Source: an uncultured bacterium (GTDB lineage: Bacteria; Cyanobacteriota; Vampirovibrionia; Gastranaerophilales; Gastranaerophilaceae). Taken from it: DNA of 39,838 bases. Under the pieces are notes generated by a model that was not told where the DNA came from, made no database searches, and saw nothing but the letters and a program-made list of their open reading frames with translations. The translations under genes were made by a program, and so were the position numbers. Location of the stretch: assembly GCA_949298805.1 (NCBI GenBank), contig CASFXY010000018.1, forward strand, positions 1 through 39,838. The letters are read 5' to 3'. This document shows positions 5,644-16,481 of this stretch, one piece after another (positions within the stretch are counted from its first letter, which is position 1; each line of letters begins with the position of its first letter).

Positions 5644-6894
5644 TTGAACGCACAAAGGGGTTTAGAAAACATCTTTGATGAAGAAAAATGCGGTCAAATT
5701 TCAAGTATATCAATGGAATTTGACAGTAAATTTTTGCCTAAAATTATAGAAGCCACACAAACTTTTTGGGAAGATGAATACAAATTCAGGCTTTTTGATA
5801 TAAATAATCACGAAAAAGTTAAAGATGAGAAATATCTTGAAAATGATTCCTTCTTTATAAGTCAGGTGCCCTCAGAATCGACTCCTCCGGTAACAATAAG
5901 GCTAAGTGAAGAATTTGTAAGGTTATTTTTGCATGCTGCATTCGGTTCAAATTTGCCCCTTTTTGAACTTAGTGACTTATCCGAACTGGAAATAAAAATT
6001 TTAAATGCTTATTGCGATTTTATATATAAATCCTTTTCAAACATACTTATCCCTCAAGAGAATCTAAACAAAATTGAACTTAAAAACAAAGATATTTACA
6101 ATTTCACAATTATCATTAAAAACAGTGATGAAAAAAATTCAAAAATTGTAATTACATTACCTGCCTCAAGAATAAAAAGGAAAGAAATCAAAAAAGAAGA
6201 AAATTACTCAGATGATGAATTTAAAAACATAAGTGCTTATGTAGATATTGAAGCCGGAAGTTCAAAATTAACACTTAGCGATTTGAAAAACATCTCAAAT
6301 GGCGACATAATACTTCTTGAGGACAGTTTTGTAAATAAAATGAAAATAATTACAGGTGATAACATAAGGGAATTTAAAATCAATCCCGATCCTGCTCTTA
6401 TGATTGAACTTGATGAAGATGAACATGATGTTGACGGAGAGGAGAATACAAATAAAAATATGTGGGATGATATACAAATAGAAGTCAATGCTCGTTTTAA
6501 AAAAGTTAAAATGACACTGGGCGAACTTAAACATATTTCAAAAGGACTTGTGATTGACCTTGGTTCTGTTTTTGAAAATGAAATTTCACTGCTTGTTGAA
6601 AATAAAACTGTTGCAAAAGGCGAATTAGTTATAATAAATGATAAATATGCAGTTAAAATTAATGAAATTATAAGCGATACACCAAAACCGCAAACCCAGC
6701 AACAAACAGCCAAACCTCAAGCTGCACAGCCACAAAAACCTGCAGCAAAACCTCAAGCCGCACAAGCGCAAAAGCCTCAAGCTGCACCTAAGCCTCAAGC
6801 TGCACAGCCACAAAAACCTGCAGCAAAACCGGCACCTAAAAAAGATGAAATAGAAGAAGATTTTGATTATTCGGATTTTGAAGAAGAAAAGTAG
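5644..6894 (+). CDS. tandem-SpoA C-ring protein (FliM/FliN/SctQ-like)
   Basis: A 416-residue protein. An N-terminal domain (about 1-185) of unclear family precedes two SpoA domains: about 195-265 (SSKLTLSDLKNISNGDIILL) and about 273-345 (VKMTLGELKHISKGLVIDL, then VAKGELVIINDKYAVKINEI). The second matches FliN closely. SpoA proteins build the cytoplasmic C-ring or sorting platform of flagella and type III injectisomes. Flagellar FliM and FliN carry one SpoA each, whereas two in one chain is the SctQ/YscQ arrangement. A Pro/Ala/Gln/Lys linker (about 350-400) with a DNA-level repeat and an acidic end (DFDYSDFEEEK) complete it; neither is typical. Start is TTG after AAGG; the first in-frame ATG would remove 23 residues. 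First gene of a six-gene operon with fliO-, fliP-, fliQ- and fliR-type genes. Confidence 0.82.
   Translation: MNAQRGLENIFDEEKCGQISSISMEFDSKFLPKIIEATQTFWEDEYKFRLFDINNHEKVKDEKYLENDSFFISQVPSESTPPVTIRLSEEFVRLFLHAAFGSNLPLFELSDLSELEIKILNAYCDFIYKSFSNILIPQENLNKIELKNKDIYNFTIIIKNSDEKNSKIVITLPASRIKRKEIKKEENYSDDEFKNISAYVDIEAGSSKLTLSDLKNISNGDIILLEDSFVNKMKIITGDNIREFKINPDPALMIELDEDEHDVDGEENTNKNMWDDIQIEVNARFKKVKMTLGELKHISKGLVIDLGSVFENEISLLVENKTVAKGELVIINDKYAVKINEIISDTPKPQTQQQTAKPQAAQPQKPAAKPQAAQAQKPQAAPKPQAAQPQKPAAKPAPKKDEIEEDFDYSDFEEEK
6715..6830 (+). repeat. in-frame 38-bp direct repeat in the Pro/Ala/Gln linker
   Basis: The 38 bases beginning CCTCAAGCTGCACAGCCACA occur identically at 6715-6752 and 6793-6830, with a related partial copy between them. 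They encode KPQAAQPQKPAAKP-type units. The 78-base period is a multiple of three, so unit gain or loss changes linker length without shifting the frame. Confidence 0.8.
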
Positions 6895-6903
6895 GAAAAA
6901 TTA

Positions 6904-7311
6904 ATGACAACTCATATTATAGCTTTTATTTTTTACACACTTGCAATGCTTGGCGTAATTTTTGTTGCTTTTGCAGTATATAAAAATGTTGTACTAAACC
7001 AAAATACACATTGCTCAAAACTCAGAGTTGAAGATATGTTAAGGCTTAATCAAAGAAAATCGCTATATGTAATAAACTACGAAGGAGAAAAATTCTTAAT
7101 AGCTTCTGATGTAGATTCAACCACCCTTATTTCAAAATTAAATACAACACAGAATGTTATTAAATCAGAACAAAACTTTGAACAAATAAAACAAGAACCG
7201 ACAGATTCTTTTGAGGATAAATTAATTGAGCTTAAAAAAACTTCCGCCGGTTCAAAAAATATGATGAGAACAATTTTAAAAGAAATAAATTCAAAAAAAG
7301 AAAGATATTAA
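6904..7311 (+). CDS. fliO: FliO-like export-gate assembly protein
   Basis: A 135-residue protein with one N-terminal membrane helix (about 4-26, IIAFIFYTLAMLGVIFVAFA) and a small cytoplasmic domain. The segment LRVEDMLRLNQRKSLYVINYEGEKFLIASDVDSTTLISKL matches the FliO pattern (leader to a hydrophobic RxSLxxV strand, then a glycine turn and a fxxGVT-like strand). FliO helps assemble the FliP ring. The C-terminal half is Lys/Glu-rich and not conserved. It lies nine bases after the SpoA gene and one base before fliP, the normal fliN-fliO-fliP order, which supports the call more than the weak sequence match does. Confidence 0.7.
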   Translation: MTTHIIAFIFYTLAMLGVIFVAFAVYKNVVLNQNTHCSKLRVEDMLRLNQRKSLYVINYEGEKFLIASDVDSTTLISKLNTTQNVIKSEQNFEQIKQEPTDSFEDKLIELKKTSAGSKNMMRTILKEINSKKERY

Positions 7312-7312
7312 A

Positions 7313-7951
7313 ATGGACGTACTTTTAAAAGATATGAATCCTGTTATACAATTGCTCGTCGTAATGACTCTTTTTTCATTACTGCCTTTTGTTTTCACTT
7401 GTATGACTTCTTTTTTAAGATTTACAATTGTCTTTTCAATGTTAAAAACCGCACTTGGTACACAAAGTGTGCCTCCTGCGATTGTTCTTATAGGGCTTTC
7501 CATGATTTTAACTTTTTATACAATGTCGCCTGTTTTTGACCAGATGATTAAAGCAGGACAAGGCGCGTATAAAAGCGGAAATATGGTAGAGTGCATTGCT
7601 CAAGGTTCAAAACCTTTAAAAGAATTTATGCTTAAACAAACTCGTCAAAATGATTTAGCTTTTTTTGTAGAAAAAACAAGAAAACAAGCCCCGGCGACTC
7701 CGGATGAACTTACTATGTGGGAAGTTGCGCCTGCTTATATAATAAGCGAATTAAAAACAGCTTTTGAAATAGGCTTTATAATATTCATACCTTTTATTGT
7801 TCTTGACCTTGTTGTAGCAAATATTTTATTGGCCTTAGGTATGTTTATGCTATCACCGACAATTATTTCGCTACCATTTAAACTTTTAATATTTATTGCG
7901 GTAGATGGTTGGAGTCTTATTGTAAAAGGACTTGTGGAGAGTTTTAACTGA
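7313..7951 (+). CDS. fliP: type III export-gate protein FliP
   Basis: A 212-residue polytopic membrane protein. Family signatures: SFLRFTIVFSMLKTALGTQS, PPAIVLIGLSMILTFYTMSP, AYIISELKTAFEIGFIIFIP and FMLSPTIISLPFKLLIFIAV near the end. FliP (SctR) forms, with FliQ and FliR, the helical core of the export gate through which substrates pass. The long cleaved N-terminal signal peptide of many flagellar FliP proteins is missing; the protein starts directly before the first membrane helix. A 60-residue periplasmic loop carries KQTRQNDLAFFVEKTRKQAP. The TGA stop shares its last base with the fliQ ATG. Confidence 0.96.
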   Translation: MDVLLKDMNPVIQLLVVMTLFSLLPFVFTCMTSFLRFTIVFSMLKTALGTQSVPPAIVLIGLSMILTFYTMSPVFDQMIKAGQGAYKSGNMVECIAQGSKPLKEFMLKQTRQNDLAFFVEKTRKQAPATPDELTMWEVAPAYIISELKTAFEIGFIIFIPFIVLDLVVANILLALGMFMLSPTIISLPFKLLIFIAVDGWSLIVKGLVESFN

Positions 7952-8442
7952 TGGAAGTACTTGTAGAATACTTAGCAAAAGGTTTTATGGTAATGTTAAT
8001 GATATCATTACCATGCGTGCTTGTAGCTGCGGCTATTGGTCTTGTAGTGGGTATTTTGCAAGCCGTAACGCAAGTTCAAGAACAAACAATTGCTGCTGCA
8101 CCAAAAATTATTGCCGTATTTTTAACTATTATTATTCTTGGTATGTGGTATATTAAAATTCTAACCGAATTTGTAATAGAAGGGACAGCAGTCGCATTTA
8201 ATGTTATTCCTCACAATCAGGAATATGTGCTTGATTCGAACTATTACAAATACACAAGACCATTTACAAATGAAATGTATGATAAAATAGATGGTTCACA
8301 AAAAGATTTAAAAGAAATTATGAAAAATCCGGGTAAACTCCCTTGGGTAGACAAAGCAGATAAAAATCTATACGGACCAACACGAAAAGGGGCAAACCCG
8401 ACACCAAACTTTATTGAAAGAAATAAAATGATGGGAAGGTAG
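7951..8442 (+). CDS. fliQ: type III export-gate protein FliQ with a C-terminal extension
   Basis: The first 88 residues are a normal FliQ (SctS): two membrane helices with MISLPCVLVAAAIGLVVGIL and QAVTQVQEQTIAAAPKIIAV, then FLTIIILGMWYIKILTEFV. FliQ usually ends here at about 89 residues; this one runs on to 163. The extra 75 residues are hydrophilic, rich in Asn, Lys, Tyr and Pro (LDSNYYKYTRPFTNEMYDKI, then LPWVDKADKNLYGPTRKG). There is no frameshift or internal stop and codon use does not change, so the tail is real coding sequence. By FliQ topology both ends point to the same side of the membrane. The tail could contact other gate or ring proteins; its role is unknown. Confidence 0.93.
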   Translation: MEVLVEYLAKGFMVMLMISLPCVLVAAAIGLVVGILQAVTQVQEQTIAAAPKIIAVFLTIIILGMWYIKILTEFVIEGTAVAFNVIPHNQEYVLDSNYYKYTRPFTNEMYDKIDGSQKDLKEIMKNPGKLPWVDKADKNLYGPTRKGANPTPNFIERNKMMGR

Positions 8443-8445
8443 CAA

Positions 8446-8829
8446 ATGAAAAAGCTAATTACAATTTTAGGAATTTTGTTTTCAATAGGTACGGTTAGTG
8501 CTTATGAAATCGATGCAAACAGTATTTTTAGAGAAGGCGACAATGTCGGTTTAAGACCTTATTCAAGATATACAATCTCTTGTCCTTCCATAATTGAAAA
8601 TGTTAATCTTGGCGACAGAAGCAATTTAAGATTTTTCTTTATGGATAATGAACCTTTTAAAACAGGTGACAGAGCAGCAAGCACACTTGTAATAAGGACT
8701 TTTGATAAATCAAGTTCCTATTTTGAAATATTTACCCAAGACGGTAAATCTCAGTCAATTAAATATAATGTAGATAACAAATACAACAAAATGGGTGCAA
8801 TTGTTGGTAATTGCAGAATTGAACCTTAA
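8446..8829 (+). CDS. secreted protein encoded between fliQ and fliR
   Basis: A 127-residue protein with a standard signal peptide (MKKLITILGILFSIGTVSA, cut before YEID). The mature part of about 108 residues looks beta-rich with two Cys (SCPSIIE and NCRIEP, at the start and end) that could form a disulfide. ATG follows GGAAGG. It sits inside the operon, three bases after fliQ and ten before fliR, so it is very likely made with the gate. No family recognised. Periplasmic location suggests an accessory or assembly factor on the outer face of the export gate; this is inference from position only. Confidence 0.75.
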   Translation: MKKLITILGILFSIGTVSAYEIDANSIFREGDNVGLRPYSRYTISCPSIIENVNLGDRSNLRFFFMDNEPFKTGDRAASTLVIRTFDKSSSYFEIFTQDGKSQSIKYNVDNKYNKMGAIVGNCRIEP

Positions 8830-8839
8830 AAAATAATTT

Positions 8840-9619
8840 ATGGATTTATTTTTGACACAATTTGCAAAACTTTTTCCCGAACTCAACCTTGCGTTGGGTG
8901 CGGGAATTATGGTGTTTAGCAGAATGCTTGGTTTAATGCAATTTGCGCCCCCCTTTAACAGAAAAGAAGTGCCCTCAATGGTTAGAATTTCAATAGCGTT
9001 AATTGTAACCGTTATTGTGACCATGCTCATTAAACCACAACCTATTCCGCCAAATACTTCAATAATGCTTGGTATACTTTTAAATTTTGCCTTTGGTGCA
9101 ATATTAGGATATATTACAAATTGTATTTTAGCTGCAGTAAGTGCAGGCGGAGATATGATAAACACGCAAATGGGTCTTTCTTCTGCTATGGTACTTGACC
9201 CTACAACACGTTCGCAAACTTCAATATTGGGTAATTACTTTACAATTTTGGGATTAATTATTTTTATTAGCGCAGGAGGTACTTATTGGCTTATAAACGC
9301 CTTTATAAGAAGTTTTGATATTTTTGGAATGTATCAAACAGTTATACCGCTTGCAAAAGTTATTAACACAAACTATCTTGTCATAATAACTTCAAATGTT
9401 TTATATTTTGGAATGCAGCTTGCAGCACCTGTTCTGCTTGCTACTTTAGGACAAGATATAATTCTGGGTATAATTTCAAAAACCGCCCCGCAAGTTAACG
9501 TTTTTCAATTAAGTTTTCTTTTTAAACCTGTTATGGGTGCACTTATTTTAATTTGGATTTTGCCGATGCTGATAAATGTTATAACAGATTATATGACTTC
9601 ATACGCAAGTATATTTTAA
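8840..9619 (+). CDS. fliR: type III export-gate protein FliR
   Basis: A 259-residue polytopic membrane protein of the FliR/SctT family: GIMVFSRMLGLMQFAPPFNR at the N-terminus, NFAFGAILGYITNCILAAVS, GGDMINTQMGLSSAMVLDPT and the C-terminal helices ending VITDYMTSYASIF. The SRMLGLMQFAPPF, G-I-GQ-like and MGLSxAxxLDP segments are diagnostic. FliR completes the FliP5-FliQ4-FliR1 export core. Neither flhB, which usually follows fliR and sets substrate specificity, nor a full flhA follows; the operon ends here. Its TAA interlocks with the kdsA stop on the other strand (TTAA, 9616-9619). Confidence 0.95.
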   Translation: MDLFLTQFAKLFPELNLALGAGIMVFSRMLGLMQFAPPFNRKEVPSMVRISIALIVTVIVTMLIKPQPIPPNTSIMLGILLNFAFGAILGYITNCILAAVSAGGDMINTQMGLSSAMVLDPTTRSQTSILGNYFTILGLIIFISAGGTYWLINAFIRSFDIFGMYQTVIPLAKVINTNYLVIITSNVLYFGMQLAAPVLLATLGQDIILGIISKTAPQVNVFQLSFLFKPVMGALILIWILPMLINVITDYMTSYASIF

Positions 9620-13294: not shown

Positions 13295-14683
13295 ATGAAT
13301 TTTAAACAGGCGATAAACTATACAAATAAATTTTACAAAATCTTAAAAAAAATGAATTCCGAAGGTACATCCTTGCCGGGGAAGTATTTGAGAAGGTTTT
13401 ATCCTGATTTTTTAAGAGAAGCCCAAAATTATGTAGCATCATATAAATTTGCAATAACAGGAACCAACGGAAAAACTACAACTGCAGGACTTTTAGCACA
13501 AATCTTAAAAGAAGCACAAAAAAGCGTTGTTCATAATGAACTGGGGGCAAATATGCCAAATGGAATTGCGACTGCAATTGCGCTTGGTCTTTACCAAAAT
13601 TTCAAAGACAACGGTGAAAATTCAATGGTAGACAATTTTGTAATAGAGTCTGACGAAGCTTATTTAAAAGAAACTTTCGAAAATATAATTTTTGACTACT
13701 TGCTTGTTACAAATCTTTTTCGCGACCAATTGGACAGATATGGCGAGCTTAACACTACAAAAAAGAAAATACAGGAAGGTATAAGACTCAACCCTGATTT
13801 AAAAATAGTTTTAAACGCGGATGACCCGAGCCTTTATGATATTGATAAAAATATAAAAAACGATATGATAGCAGGCAGAAAAAAAAGAAAAATAATATAT
13901 TTTGGGTTTGATAATGTAGAATTTTGCGACTTTGATTCAAAATCAAACAGTCCTTGCGAAGTAATTTATTGCCCTGTCTGCAAAAAACCGCTTAAATATT
14001 CTAAAAGGTTTTATTCTCAACTGGGCATTTGGAGTTGCGCTTGTCATATAAAAAGACCAAAACCCGATATTAGTGCCGATGTTAAAGTTTTTAGAAATTA
14101 TTCAATATTAAATGTAAAATATGACGATAAAAATATTATGTATAAACTTAATTTATCGGGACTTTATAACGCTTATAATGCATTGGGCGCAATAACATGC
14201 GCTTATATGGCAGGCATCGACAGAAAAATAATCGCCAGAGCACTTGATAATTATAAGCCTGTTTTTGGCAGGGCACAAAAAGAAATAATCGAAGGAAAAG
14301 AGATTAATTTATACCTCATCAAAAATCCCACAGGCGCATGTGAAGTACTAAGAGGCTTAAAAAATATTAAAAATACAAAATTAATGATTGCAATTAATGA
14401 CAAATATGCTGATGGCAGAGATGTTTCATGGCTTTGGGATGCAGATTTTGAAATTCTTGAAAAATTTAACAACAAAATATTTATATCAGGTACACGTGCT
14501 GATGATATGGCTTTAAGACTTAAATATGCAGGGGTTAACCCCGGAGTTATGGTTATTGATAATAATATTAAAAAGACATTTGATTATGCACTAAAATCAA
14601 CGCATTCAGGTGAAAAATTAATAATTTTACCTACATACACAGCACTTTTAAAGCTTAGCAAAATTATTAAAGAAAAAATTTAG
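13295..14683 (+). CDS. murT: MurT-like Mur ligase (lipid II isoglutaminyl synthase subunit)
   Basis: MurT, with the glutaminase GatD, amidates the D-Glu of the peptidoglycan stem. The 462-residue protein has the P-loop ITGTNGKTTTAG (about residue 56), NELGANMPNGIATAIAL, FVIESDEAYLKETF, VTNLFRDQLDRYGEL, the MurT-specific four-Cys ribbon inserted in the central domain (CPVCKKPLKY...WSCAC, from about residue 226), LSGLYNAYNALGAITCAYMA, and the C-terminal DUF1727-like part with KNPTGACEVLRGL and INDKYADGRDVSWLWDADFE. No gatD follows; the next gene is convergent. ATG 13295 with weak AGG upstream is chosen; an open extension to TTG 13259 would add 12 residues and be leaderless. The TAG stop interlocks with the next gene's stop (TTAG). 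Confidence 0.9.
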   Translation: MNFKQAINYTNKFYKILKKMNSEGTSLPGKYLRRFYPDFLREAQNYVASYKFAITGTNGKTTTAGLLAQILKEAQKSVVHNELGANMPNGIATAIALGLYQNFKDNGENSMVDNFVIESDEAYLKETFENIIFDYLLVTNLFRDQLDRYGELNTTKKKIQEGIRLNPDLKIVLNADDPSLYDIDKNIKNDMIAGRKKRKIIYFGFDNVEFCDFDSKSNSPCEVIYCPVCKKPLKYSKRFYSQLGIWSCACHIKRPKPDISADVKVFRNYSILNVKYDDKNIMYKLNLSGLYNAYNALGAITCAYMAGIDRKIIARALDNYKPVFGRAQKEIIEGKEINLYLIKNPTGACEVLRGLKNIKNTKLMIAINDKYADGRDVSWLWDADFEILEKFNNKIFISGTRADDMALRLKYAGVNPGVMVIDNNIKKTFDYALKSTHSGEKLIILPTYTALLKLSKIIKEKI

Positions 14684-16125
14684 ATTTGTCCTAAAATCTT
14701 TAGCTCAAACTCGTTTGAAATTTCCTCAAGACAAATAACAGGAATATCGGTGTATATTTGTGAAATAAGTATAAATAAAAGCTGGCGCAAGTGTTGCGGC
14801 GCAACAAGAACCGCTTTTTGTTCAAGCACTTTATTTAATTTTTTCTTAAATTTCGAAAATTTTGTGCCGTCAATTTTAACCACGCCGTTATGTTCGTCTT
14901 CAGACTGGTTTTCAAGCATATTTATCAGTTCATCCGATACTTCATAACCAAAAATTTGTTTATCTTCATTTGCAAGAGAATAACAAATTTGCCTTGAAAG
15001 TGCCACACGAAGCTTGTCTAAGAGGTCTGCTTTACTTGATTCGTCTGAAAAATCATTTATCTTTTCAAAAATAAATACAACATCTTTAACACTTACTCTT
15101 TCTCTTATCAAATTACAAAATATATACTTAAGCTCACTTACGGTAATAAAATCACCTAAAACAGAATCTATCAAAAAAGAATTATGCTCTGAAACAAGCT
15201 CTATATAACGATTTATATCATTATATCCGAATATTTCGCTGACATGAGTTATTGCAAAATATTTAAGGTACTCTACCACATACTCGCAAGGTGTAATCCC
15301 TTTAGCCCAAAAATCCTTACAATATTTTTCTTCAATCCAAACAACTTTTCTGCCGCTCAGTTCGTCTTTGGTTTTAATTGTATTTTTAGGATATTTATCA
15401 ATATTTAATTCATCTTCAAAGTACATTAGATGCTTTGGATATGCCATAGCAGTGACTACAGGGACGGCATGAATAGAAATTGTAAAAGTATATTCATCCA
15501 GCTCGGGATTTTCAACAAATTGAACTTTTGGAATAATAAAACCCAACTCAGAAGTTAAATCCTGACGCGCTTTAATTGTTTGCTCAAGAAGATTATGAAC
15601 ATTTTGTGAATCATTAAGCGAATATAATTCTTCGCTTAAATTAATTGAAAGACGTTCTACACCAAGGTTTTGAGCCATTTTAGAAGGCGATAAAAGACTT
15701 TTAAGTTGCTTTTTCAAGTTGTTTAATTTATCAATTTCTCTTGAAATTTCTTCATTCAAAAATTCACGCTCTGAATCTTTTGCACCTTCAAGAAATTTTT
15801 TAATTTCTTCAATTCTCTCTCTTTTTTCGCGAATTTTCTTTTGAATATTTAAGCACAATTCCCAAGGCTGCTCTTTTGAATAAAGCATTTTTTCCATTTG
15901 AGATTTAAAACCTAAAATATCCTCAAATTCCGCCTCATCATAAATATTTTCAATCTCACGCACAAAAAGACAGTTATAGACAATTTTTGAACCGTTATCA
16001 GATTCATAAATTGAATATAAATCCCAACCTTCTTTGGACATTGCATTTAAAGTGTTTTCAAGAAGCGAAATTTCATCACTCGGACAAACTTTTATTGAAA
16101 ATTCCTGACGTGTAGGTTTAAACAT
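14680..16125 (-). CDS. FlhA cytoplasmic-domain protein without the membrane channel
   Basis: A soluble 481-residue protein. Residues about 155-481 match the whole cytoplasmic domain of FlhA/SctV: VERLSINLSEELYSL, then QDLTSELGFIIPKVQFVENP (FlhA: LAxELGFVxPxVRxRDN), YPKHLMYF, GRKVVWIEE, TPCEYVVEYLKYFAITHVSE (xVVxxHLxxxIxxHaxE), LGDFITVSELKYIFCNLIRE, RVSVKDVVFIFEKINDFS, LRVALSRQICYSLA, and the closing AVLVAPQHLRQLLFILIS. The eight-helix membrane part of FlhA is absent. In its place are a DUF4177-like domain (1-57, EGWDLYSIYESDNGSKIVY) and a coiled coil (about 90-145). In FlhA this domain forms the nine-subunit ring that docks chaperone-substrate complexes. Likely a dedicated soluble ring or adaptor for the export system at 5644-9619. 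A -10-like TAAAAT lies six bases before ATG; no Shine-Dalgarno. Confidence 0.82.
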   Translation of the reverse strand: MFKPTRQEFSIKVCPSDEISLLENTLNAMSKEGWDLYSIYESDNGSKIVYNCLFVREIENIYDEAEFEDILGFKSQMEKMLYSKEQPWELCLNIQKKIREKRERIEEIKKFLEGAKDSEREFLNEEISREIDKLNNLKKQLKSLLSPSKMAQNLGVERLSINLSEELYSLNDSQNVHNLLEQTIKARQDLTSELGFIIPKVQFVENPELDEYTFTISIHAVPVVTAMAYPKHLMYFEDELNIDKYPKNTIKTKDELSGRKVVWIEEKYCKDFWAKGITPCEYVVEYLKYFAITHVSEIFGYNDINRYIELVSEHNSFLIDSVLGDFITVSELKYIFCNLIRERVSVKDVVFIFEKINDFSDESSKADLLDKLRVALSRQICYSLANEDKQIFGYEVSDELINMLENQSEDEHNGVVKIDGTKFSKFKKKLNKVLEQKAVLVAPQHLRQLLFILISQIYTDIPVICLEEISNEFELKILGQI

Positions 16126-16145: not shown

Positions 16146-16481
16146 TTATGTATTTTTCTTTTCGTCGGCTTTATTTTTCGAAATTCTGTTTGCAATAAAA
16201 TCGGCAATTCCACCGGCAATAAATCCGCATAATGCAGTTATGGCAGCGCTTGTTACAACCAAAGCTGTTTTTCTTGCACCGCTGTAATAATGTTTATTGT
16301 TTTGAGCAGCATCTTTTGCTGCCTTAGCAAGATTTTTTACAAATTCGTCAGAATTCATAAATTTCCTTGCCGTGTATAAACCGTACAAGCCAAAAATGCC
16401 TGTGCCCGTTAACCTTCCCAGTCTTGTAATTTTATATTTGTTACCCTTAGGAGTTGTTGCTTCAGTGCTTAAAACTCTCAT
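16146..16481 (-). CDS. hypothetical small membrane protein, 111 aa
   Basis: Basic N-terminus (MRVLSTEATTPKGNKYKITRLGRLTG), a glycine/aromatic segment GTGIFGLYGLYTARKFM, an amphipathic helix, and one clear membrane helix (about 75-97, TALVVTSAAITALCGFIAGG) before a Lys-rich tail. A TATAAT-like -10 and AAGGAAG ribosome site precede ATG. No family recognised; it looks like one of the many small lineage-specific proteins in such genomes. Confidence 0.7.
   Translation of the reverse strand: MRVLSTEATTPKGNKYKITRLGRLTGTGIFGLYGLYTARKFMNSDEFVKNLAKAAKDAAQNNKHYYSGARKTALVVTSAAITALCGFIAGGIADFIANRISKNKADEKKNT

Follow-up and report, generated by a model that had tools for sequence, protein, structure and literature searches.

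A stand-alone FlhA cytoplasmic-domain protein found nearly throughout the Gastranaerophilales

Gene and domain organization

The window analysed here, a stretch of 39,838 nt from an uncultured member of the Gastranaerophilaceae, carries an intact gene for a protein consisting of a small N-terminal domain, a helical hairpin, and the linker and cytoplasmic subdomains of the export-gate protein FlhA, referred to below as the stand-alone FlhA-C protein. Genes for FliM/N through FliR are located 5–8 kb away (Table 1). The edges of subdomains D1 to D4 are taken to be those of Salmonella FlhA, mapped by motif.

Table 1. Features of the stand-alone FlhA-C gene and of the second-system gene cluster in the window
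Feature	Position	Strand	Remarks
FliM/FliN-type protein, second system	5644..6894	+	FliMN_C, 77.3 bits
FliO-like protein	6904..7311	+	PF04347, 28.5 bits (cut-off 22)
FliP, second system	7313..7951	+	PF00813, 230.6 bits
FliQ, second system, 163 aa	7951..8442	+	PF01313, 75.2 bits, residues 5-75 only
FliR, second system	8840..9619	+	PF01311, 169.6 bits
Stand-alone FlhA-C protein, whole gene, 481 aa	14680..16125	-	ATG start
FlhA linker and cytoplasmic subdomains D1-D4, residues 146-481	14683..15690	-
Subdomain D3, best-conserved region, residues 297-376	14998..15237	-
End-of-D2 stretch with W273 and G276, residues 269-276	15298..15321	-
Helical hairpin, residues 87-145	15691..15867	-	Helices 87-113 and 117-144 (AlphaFold2)
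Linker with short helix, mostly low-confidence, residues 60-86	15868..15948	-	AlphaFold2
Small beta-alpha-beta-beta domain, DUF4177-like, residues 1-59	15949..16125	-

A sequence-only reading of this locus had assigned the C-terminal part of the protein to the FlhA cytoplasmic domain, and profile and structure comparisons bore this out. The FHIPEP family (PF00771) matched residues 136-473 with 160.9 bits (E = 6.3e-47, cut-off 29.1), covering the latter half only of the profile (positions 321-656 of 657); this is the sole FHIPEP stretch detected by Pfam, and the membrane channel with the FHIPEP loop is absent. A profile built from 18 orthologs found FlhA and SctV cytoplasmic domains in the PDB, with the B. 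subtilis FlhA domain as its best match (1.7e-44). The AlphaFold2 model (42 aligned sequences, mean pLDDT 80.6, pTM 0.61) was compared to the PDB by Foldseek, and all 50 matches listed were FlhA/SctV cytoplasmic domains or complexes, the best being 6ch1 (E = 3.6e-22, target TM 0.80). The protein is thus predicted to adopt the four-subdomain FlhA-C fold. The 59-residue domain and the hairpin stand in place of the channel in this model, with strands at 5-15, 35-43 and 48-59 and a helix at 19-31 in the former; pLDDT drops below 50 at residues 60-74 and 76-83. The second helix of the hairpin (117-144) aligns with the linker of FlhA2 (described below), and the linker region is kept. No match to the FlhB family (PF01312) was listed in the protein at E <= 0.1, and a weak Pfam hit of the hairpin to PCRF (E = 0.022) was dismissed as noise from the coiled coil.

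The same reading had the channel replaced by a DUF4177-like domain and a coiled coil. The missing membrane domain and the predicted hairpin agree with this, and the DUF4177 assignment stayed under the Pfam cut-off: the DUF4177 model (PF13783) gave sub-threshold matches in 11 of 18 orthologs, had no hit at E <= 0.001 in the genome of the window, and across 60 whole genomes of the order produced five hits at that threshold, scoring 21.1–23.6 bits against a cut-off of 25. All five hits lie inside the stand-alone FlhA-C gene, and this is the likeness to DUF4177, a small domain of unknown function; the domain differs in its lower scores and in being fused to FlhA-C. Its conserved Trp-containing pattern is one that we take to resemble DUF4177. 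The fold of residues 1-59 had no PDB match at E <= 0.001, and weak matches to KCTD, dodecin and other proteins were not used. The domain is present in all 34 non-redundant orthologs aligned.

Distribution across the order

A survey of related genomes, as the sequence-only reading had suggested, was conducted with the stand-alone FlhA-C protein as query against 146 sampled genomes of the order (Gastranaerophilales). All 146 matched, and in 144, the window's own included, the best match was a stand-alone FlhA-C protein itself (E of 3.8e-83 or lower, no internal stops). Genomes G135 and G028 yielded weaker, full-FlhA-type matches only. At least one further match to the query was found in 143 of the 144 genomes carrying the protein. 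The exception is G122 (draft, 97% complete), in which the stand-alone FlhA-C protein is present and full FlhA was not found; G135, also a draft, keeps full FlhA, FlhB and FliP without the stand-alone gene.

Flagellin was detected in 55 of the 146 genomes and FliG_C in 53, compared to 144 for FlhB, 145 for FliP, 144 for rod-type proteins and 144 for FliI over cut-off, the FliI model covering the flagellar ATPase as well. The stand-alone FlhA-C protein occurs together with FlhB, FliP and a rod-type protein in 139 genomes, and the genomes missing each of these genes differ from gene to gene; because the secretion genes are themselves nearly universal, this co-occurrence has little power. By comparison of the lists by eye, 54 of the 55 flagellin-positive genomes and 90 of the 91 flagellin-negative ones carry the protein, and a flagellum-specific role was rejected on the latter count.

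Outside the order's sample, a class sample of 146 genomes included 94 from families other than the window's; 42 of these match the query, and none of the matches listed there reaches the N-terminal domain. A wider scan found 334 relatives; the titles of the 80 listed are Candidatus Gastranaerophilales, Galli- or Avigastranaerophilus, Melainabacteria, Cyanobacteria SIG and one Heliobacteriaceae, the rest being without name. The contig titled Heliobacteriaceae (L143, Gx481_bin109) carries an ordinary family member and probably belongs to a misnamed genome.

FlhA paralogs and origin of the stand-alone protein

FHIPEP matches just three places in the window's genome by profile search: the stand-alone gene and two full-length, intact FlhA genes on other contigs. 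The FlhA of 875.6 bits is grouped with FliP, FliQ, FliR and FlhB and was taken as the flagellar one (FlhA1); FlhA2, at 717.7 bits, is grouped with FliE, FliF and FliH. Two FlhB are also present, the second on contig C9, so that the full flhA and flhB, whose presence had been posed as a question from the sequence alone, are both there in duplicate. A split or broken FlhA was rejected since both full genes are intact, and the split ring proposed earlier is not supported. The disrupted upstream membrane-domain gene named there as the opposing case was likewise not seen: the next upstream ORF (16146-16481) matched no Pfam family over cut-off, and FHIPEP has no place in the genome beyond the three. 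A sigma-70 region 4 protein (L183:8592-9266) adjoins the second FlhB gene. The usual place of FliG is between FliF and FliH; the gene found there (L035:5071-6015, L165:7233-8249) matched no Pfam family over cut-off, and FliG_C was not found in 93 of the 146 order genomes.

In a tree of 38 cytoplasmic domains rooted on FlhA1, the 16 stand-alone rows form one group (support 100/100) on a long stem branch (1.57), which joins the 14 FlhA2 rows (97/89) apart from the flagellar FlhA1. By this tree, the stand-alone FlhA-C protein is closest to FlhA2 and not to the flagellar FlhA, and the earlier alternative of a duplicated ring, for which two full FlhA besides the stand-alone protein also speak, is supported. 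A topology nesting the stand-alone group within the FlhA2 of the order was not rejected (p-AU 0.256), and the duplication may therefore date from within the order. Compared to its nearest relative, the protein has a dN/dS of 0.049 (dS 1.14) over its whole length and 0.025 for the N-terminal domain; four other pairs lay near or past silent-site saturation. All parts of the protein are under purifying selection.

Gene neighborhood and the second secretion system

FlhA2 is the gate of a second, apparently filament-less flagellar-type type III secretion system present nearly throughout the order. A second FliP-FliQ-FliR set, with FliM/N and a FliO-like gene, is located in the window, where fliP, fliQ and fliR had been noted near the gene (7313-9619). 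A similar FliM/N-to-FliR set occurs in G001, a genome without a flagellin match. The window's FliQ is about twice the length of its Pfam domain owing to a long C-terminal extension that is kept in G001, and the two proteins are 61% identical over the whole length. Between FliQ and FliR, positions 8446-8829 hold an ORF of 127 aa whose start looks signal-like by eye and which matched no Pfam family; G001 has a similar-sized ORF at this place.

The FliPQR neighborhood holds for the window and is local: FliP and FliR lie near the stand-alone gene in nine of 100 loci, with one genome among them twice. In G007, genes for FliJ, FliK, FlgD and a hook-type protein come after the stand-alone gene in the same orientation, with FliI, an FlhA2-type gene and, by similarity, a likely FliH ~13 kb further on. 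The distance to the second-system FliI, assigned by score, is 25 kb or less in 27 of 96 genomes with both places listed, these genomes being mutually dependent through kinship. The neighbors scanned are mostly non-secretion genes, and no order-wide conserved operon was found, as the commonest neighbor family reaches 27 of 101 loci (the window and 100 others, with at least one genome represented twice). The neighbor clustering misses small divergent proteins, such as the FliJ of G007, which was found by Pfam.

Further channel-less FlhA-C copies

An FHIPEP search of 26 order genomes, mostly picked for extra matches to the query or for lack of the usual ones, revealed further FlhA-C paralogs in eight of 11 genomes of genus g11 (the other three had two query matches only), in three genomes of g7, and in G084, G016, G097 (three places), G082 and G088. 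FlhA2-like cytoplasmic-domain paralogs are found at L236-L246 (G045, G073, G142, G084, G016, G097, G049, G078, G088 and G082). All 12 paralogs that were read match FlhA2 rows best. Eight of these, with four near-copies excluded, were mapped on FlhA2: all eight retain D1 and D3, while D2 is missing in 7/8 and D4 in 5/8. Judging from these alignments, D1 and D3 are what survives in detached copies within the order. In g11 and g14 the paralogs have a different domain at the N-terminus, which is similar in part between these genera, as well as hydrophobic stretches which by eye resemble membrane helices.

FlhA-C copies or pieces were also observed in other orders of the class (L187, L186, L199 in G173, and L197 and L198 in G149). 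Those of G173 and G149 (family f11) are closest to an f11 FlhA; the two pieces of G149 sit at contig edges with a common overlap and are probably one gene. In G171 (f9), an FlhA-C copy lies directly beside FlhA2 (L196:4998-5891). Genome G192, outside the order, was discarded as a case, its copy being an FlhA cut by a contig edge. Detachment of FlhA-C is thus recurrent, since further copies occur in several genera of the order and in G173, G149 and G171.

Conserved and lost parts

D1 and D3 carry the ring contacts of FlhA subunits. As mean bits per region over 34 non-redundant orthologs, conservation is highest in D3 (3.05 bits, with 15 of 80 positions at least 90% identical) and second highest in the N-terminal domain (2.82 bits). 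D4 is the least conserved structured region (2.15 bits), and residues 60-83 are the least conserved of all (2.09 bits). The D3 value is weak evidence for a ring, because isolated FlhA-C is reported to be monomeric in solution and the oligomer surface, well conserved in SctV, is described as not notably so in FlhA (PMC5932034).

The FlhA chaperone site comprises Asp456, Phe459 and Thr490, and FliJ binds in a cleft between FlhA D4 domains (PMC8179193). The Asp456 position is Asp in 14 of 16 stand-alone rows. The Phe459 position, which is Phe in 4/4 FlhA1 and Tyr or Phe in 14/14 FlhA2, is Thr, Ser, Asn or Leu in all 16 stand-alone rows, and Thr490, kept in 4/4 FlhA1 and 8/14 FlhA2, is Thr in none of them. 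These replacements indicate that the stand-alone FlhA-C protein has lost the flagellar-type chaperone pocket, and they make the substrate-docking function given to the ring by the sequence-only reading doubtful, though Asp456 is mostly kept. D2 itself is retained (46 of 49 positions), and W273 and G276, which are fixed in 16/16 stand-alone rows whereas neither FlhA1 nor FlhA2 shares them, fall between the Phe459 and Thr490 positions in the alignment, near the flagellar chaperone pocket by sequence.

Interpretation

The retention of D1 and D3, the loss or rebuilding of the docking parts, the relationship to FlhA2 and the persistence of the protein where FlhA2 persists are most simply accounted for if the stand-alone FlhA-C protein serves the FlhA2 export gate as a soluble accessory subunit and co-assembles with the FlhA2 ring, a reading to which we assign a probability of slightly under one half. 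We infer co-assembly because the parts kept, D1 and D3, are those known for packing the ring. The protein would enter a mixed ring together with FlhA2, or form a ring of its own that stacks on or caps the FlhA2 ring, and the DUF4177-like domain and hairpin would occupy the side to which the channel is usually joined; such co-assembly could alter the number of docking sites at the gate or the partner accepted. The linker stabilizes the FlhA nonamer (PMC8213127), and in a preprint (PMC13308203) the FlhA ring is seen in a tilted position beneath the channel, topped by a density into which the FlhB tail fits, an arrangement that leaves room for extra parts. Counting against an accessory subunit are genomes G135 and G122, the non-secretion neighbors in most loci, and D2, which is still present. 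The flagellar chaperone site is, moreover, not conserved in the injectisome SctV either, and SctV still docks chaperones (PMC5932034).

The persistence of D2, with its own fixed W273 and G276, would also suit a separate soluble docking platform, i.e., a ring of its own or a monomeric adaptor whose rebuilt D2 takes up a particular type of cargo or chaperone for delivery to FlhA2. Chaperones do dock on FlhA-type domains (PMC8179193, PMC5932034), and the linker region is retained here; however, D2 is the subdomain missing in seven of the eight mapped paralogs, the flagellar-type pocket residues are gone, and no neighbor family is common to more than 27 of 101 loci, making this a somewhat unlikely alternative. 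A further alternative is a decoy or brake, a soluble competitor that would keep the gate from binding FliJ, FliI or the tail of FlhB. FliJ directly follows the gene in G007 and binds between FlhA D4 domains (PMC8179193), but D4 is the least conserved structured region and is absent in five of eight paralog rows, and we regard this role as improbable.

The non-secretion neighbors in most loci, the presence of the protein in G122, where full FlhA was not found, and the long stem branch (1.57) are what would be expected of a repurposed scaffold, steered by the DUF4177-like domain to a function other than secretion. Set against this are the occurrence of the protein across the order together with the second system, the nearby secretion genes in G007 and the window's genus, and the repeated emergence of FlhA-C copies, one of them beside FlhA2 in G171; such a scaffold is unlikely. 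A decaying relic or assembly artefact, to which the missing membrane half and nothing more would point, is scarcely credible given a gene without internal stops in 144 of 146 genomes, a dN/dS of 0.049 at a dS of ~1.1, and an N-terminal domain in every one of the 34 orthologs.

With regard to the accessory-subunit reading, sister copies keeping mainly the putative ring-building parts suggest a new kind of accessory subunit for the secretion machine. More tentatively, channel-less FlhA2-derived ring subunits may constitute a new class of type III secretion component, forming mixed or capped gate rings that tune the non-flagellar system of the gut Gastranaerophilales, relatives of cyanobacteria; one subunit of this class would be near-universal in the order, and others, from which the docking subdomain has been removed, would be lineage-specific. 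An order-wide channel-less copy together with ring-part copies makes mixed gate rings directly testable, as well as the need for D2 and D4 in every gate subunit. The finding also points to a filament-less secretion system kept by the order while many of its members lack flagellin.

Relation to described systems

FlhA and SctV (FHIPEP, PF00771), the flagellar and injectisome export gates, are single chains that form a uniform nine-fold ring. The stand-alone FlhA-C protein resembles them in its linker and D1-D4, by sequence and predicted fold, and differs in its lack of a membrane channel, in the other N-terminal domains and in a flagellar chaperone pocket that is not kept. FlhX is a small processing domain that is not known to assemble into a ring and carries no extra domain at its N-terminus; a 2006 paper by Wand et al. 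reportedly presents, in its title, the FlhX of Helicobacter as a "spare part" for FlhB. FlhX/HP1575 of Campylobacterota (gene list in PMC9321776) is likewise a duplicated export-gate cytoplasmic domain without a membrane part, differing in its derivation from FlhB instead of FlhA, and this spare FlhB domain is the nearest idea in print. Searches among open-licence papers yielded no account of a stand-alone FlhA domain, or of the second system as such, in keeping with the earlier remark that no protein of this layout had been described. The flagellar genes of the order have been treated as flagella, complete or partial (Di Rienzi 2013, Soo 2014), with complete flagella gene sets in only three of nine Gastranaerophilales genomes (Soo 2014). 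The MEL-COG list includes two flhA among its 13 flagellum-related genes (Di Rienzi 2013), and one of these two may be the stand-alone FlhA-C gene.
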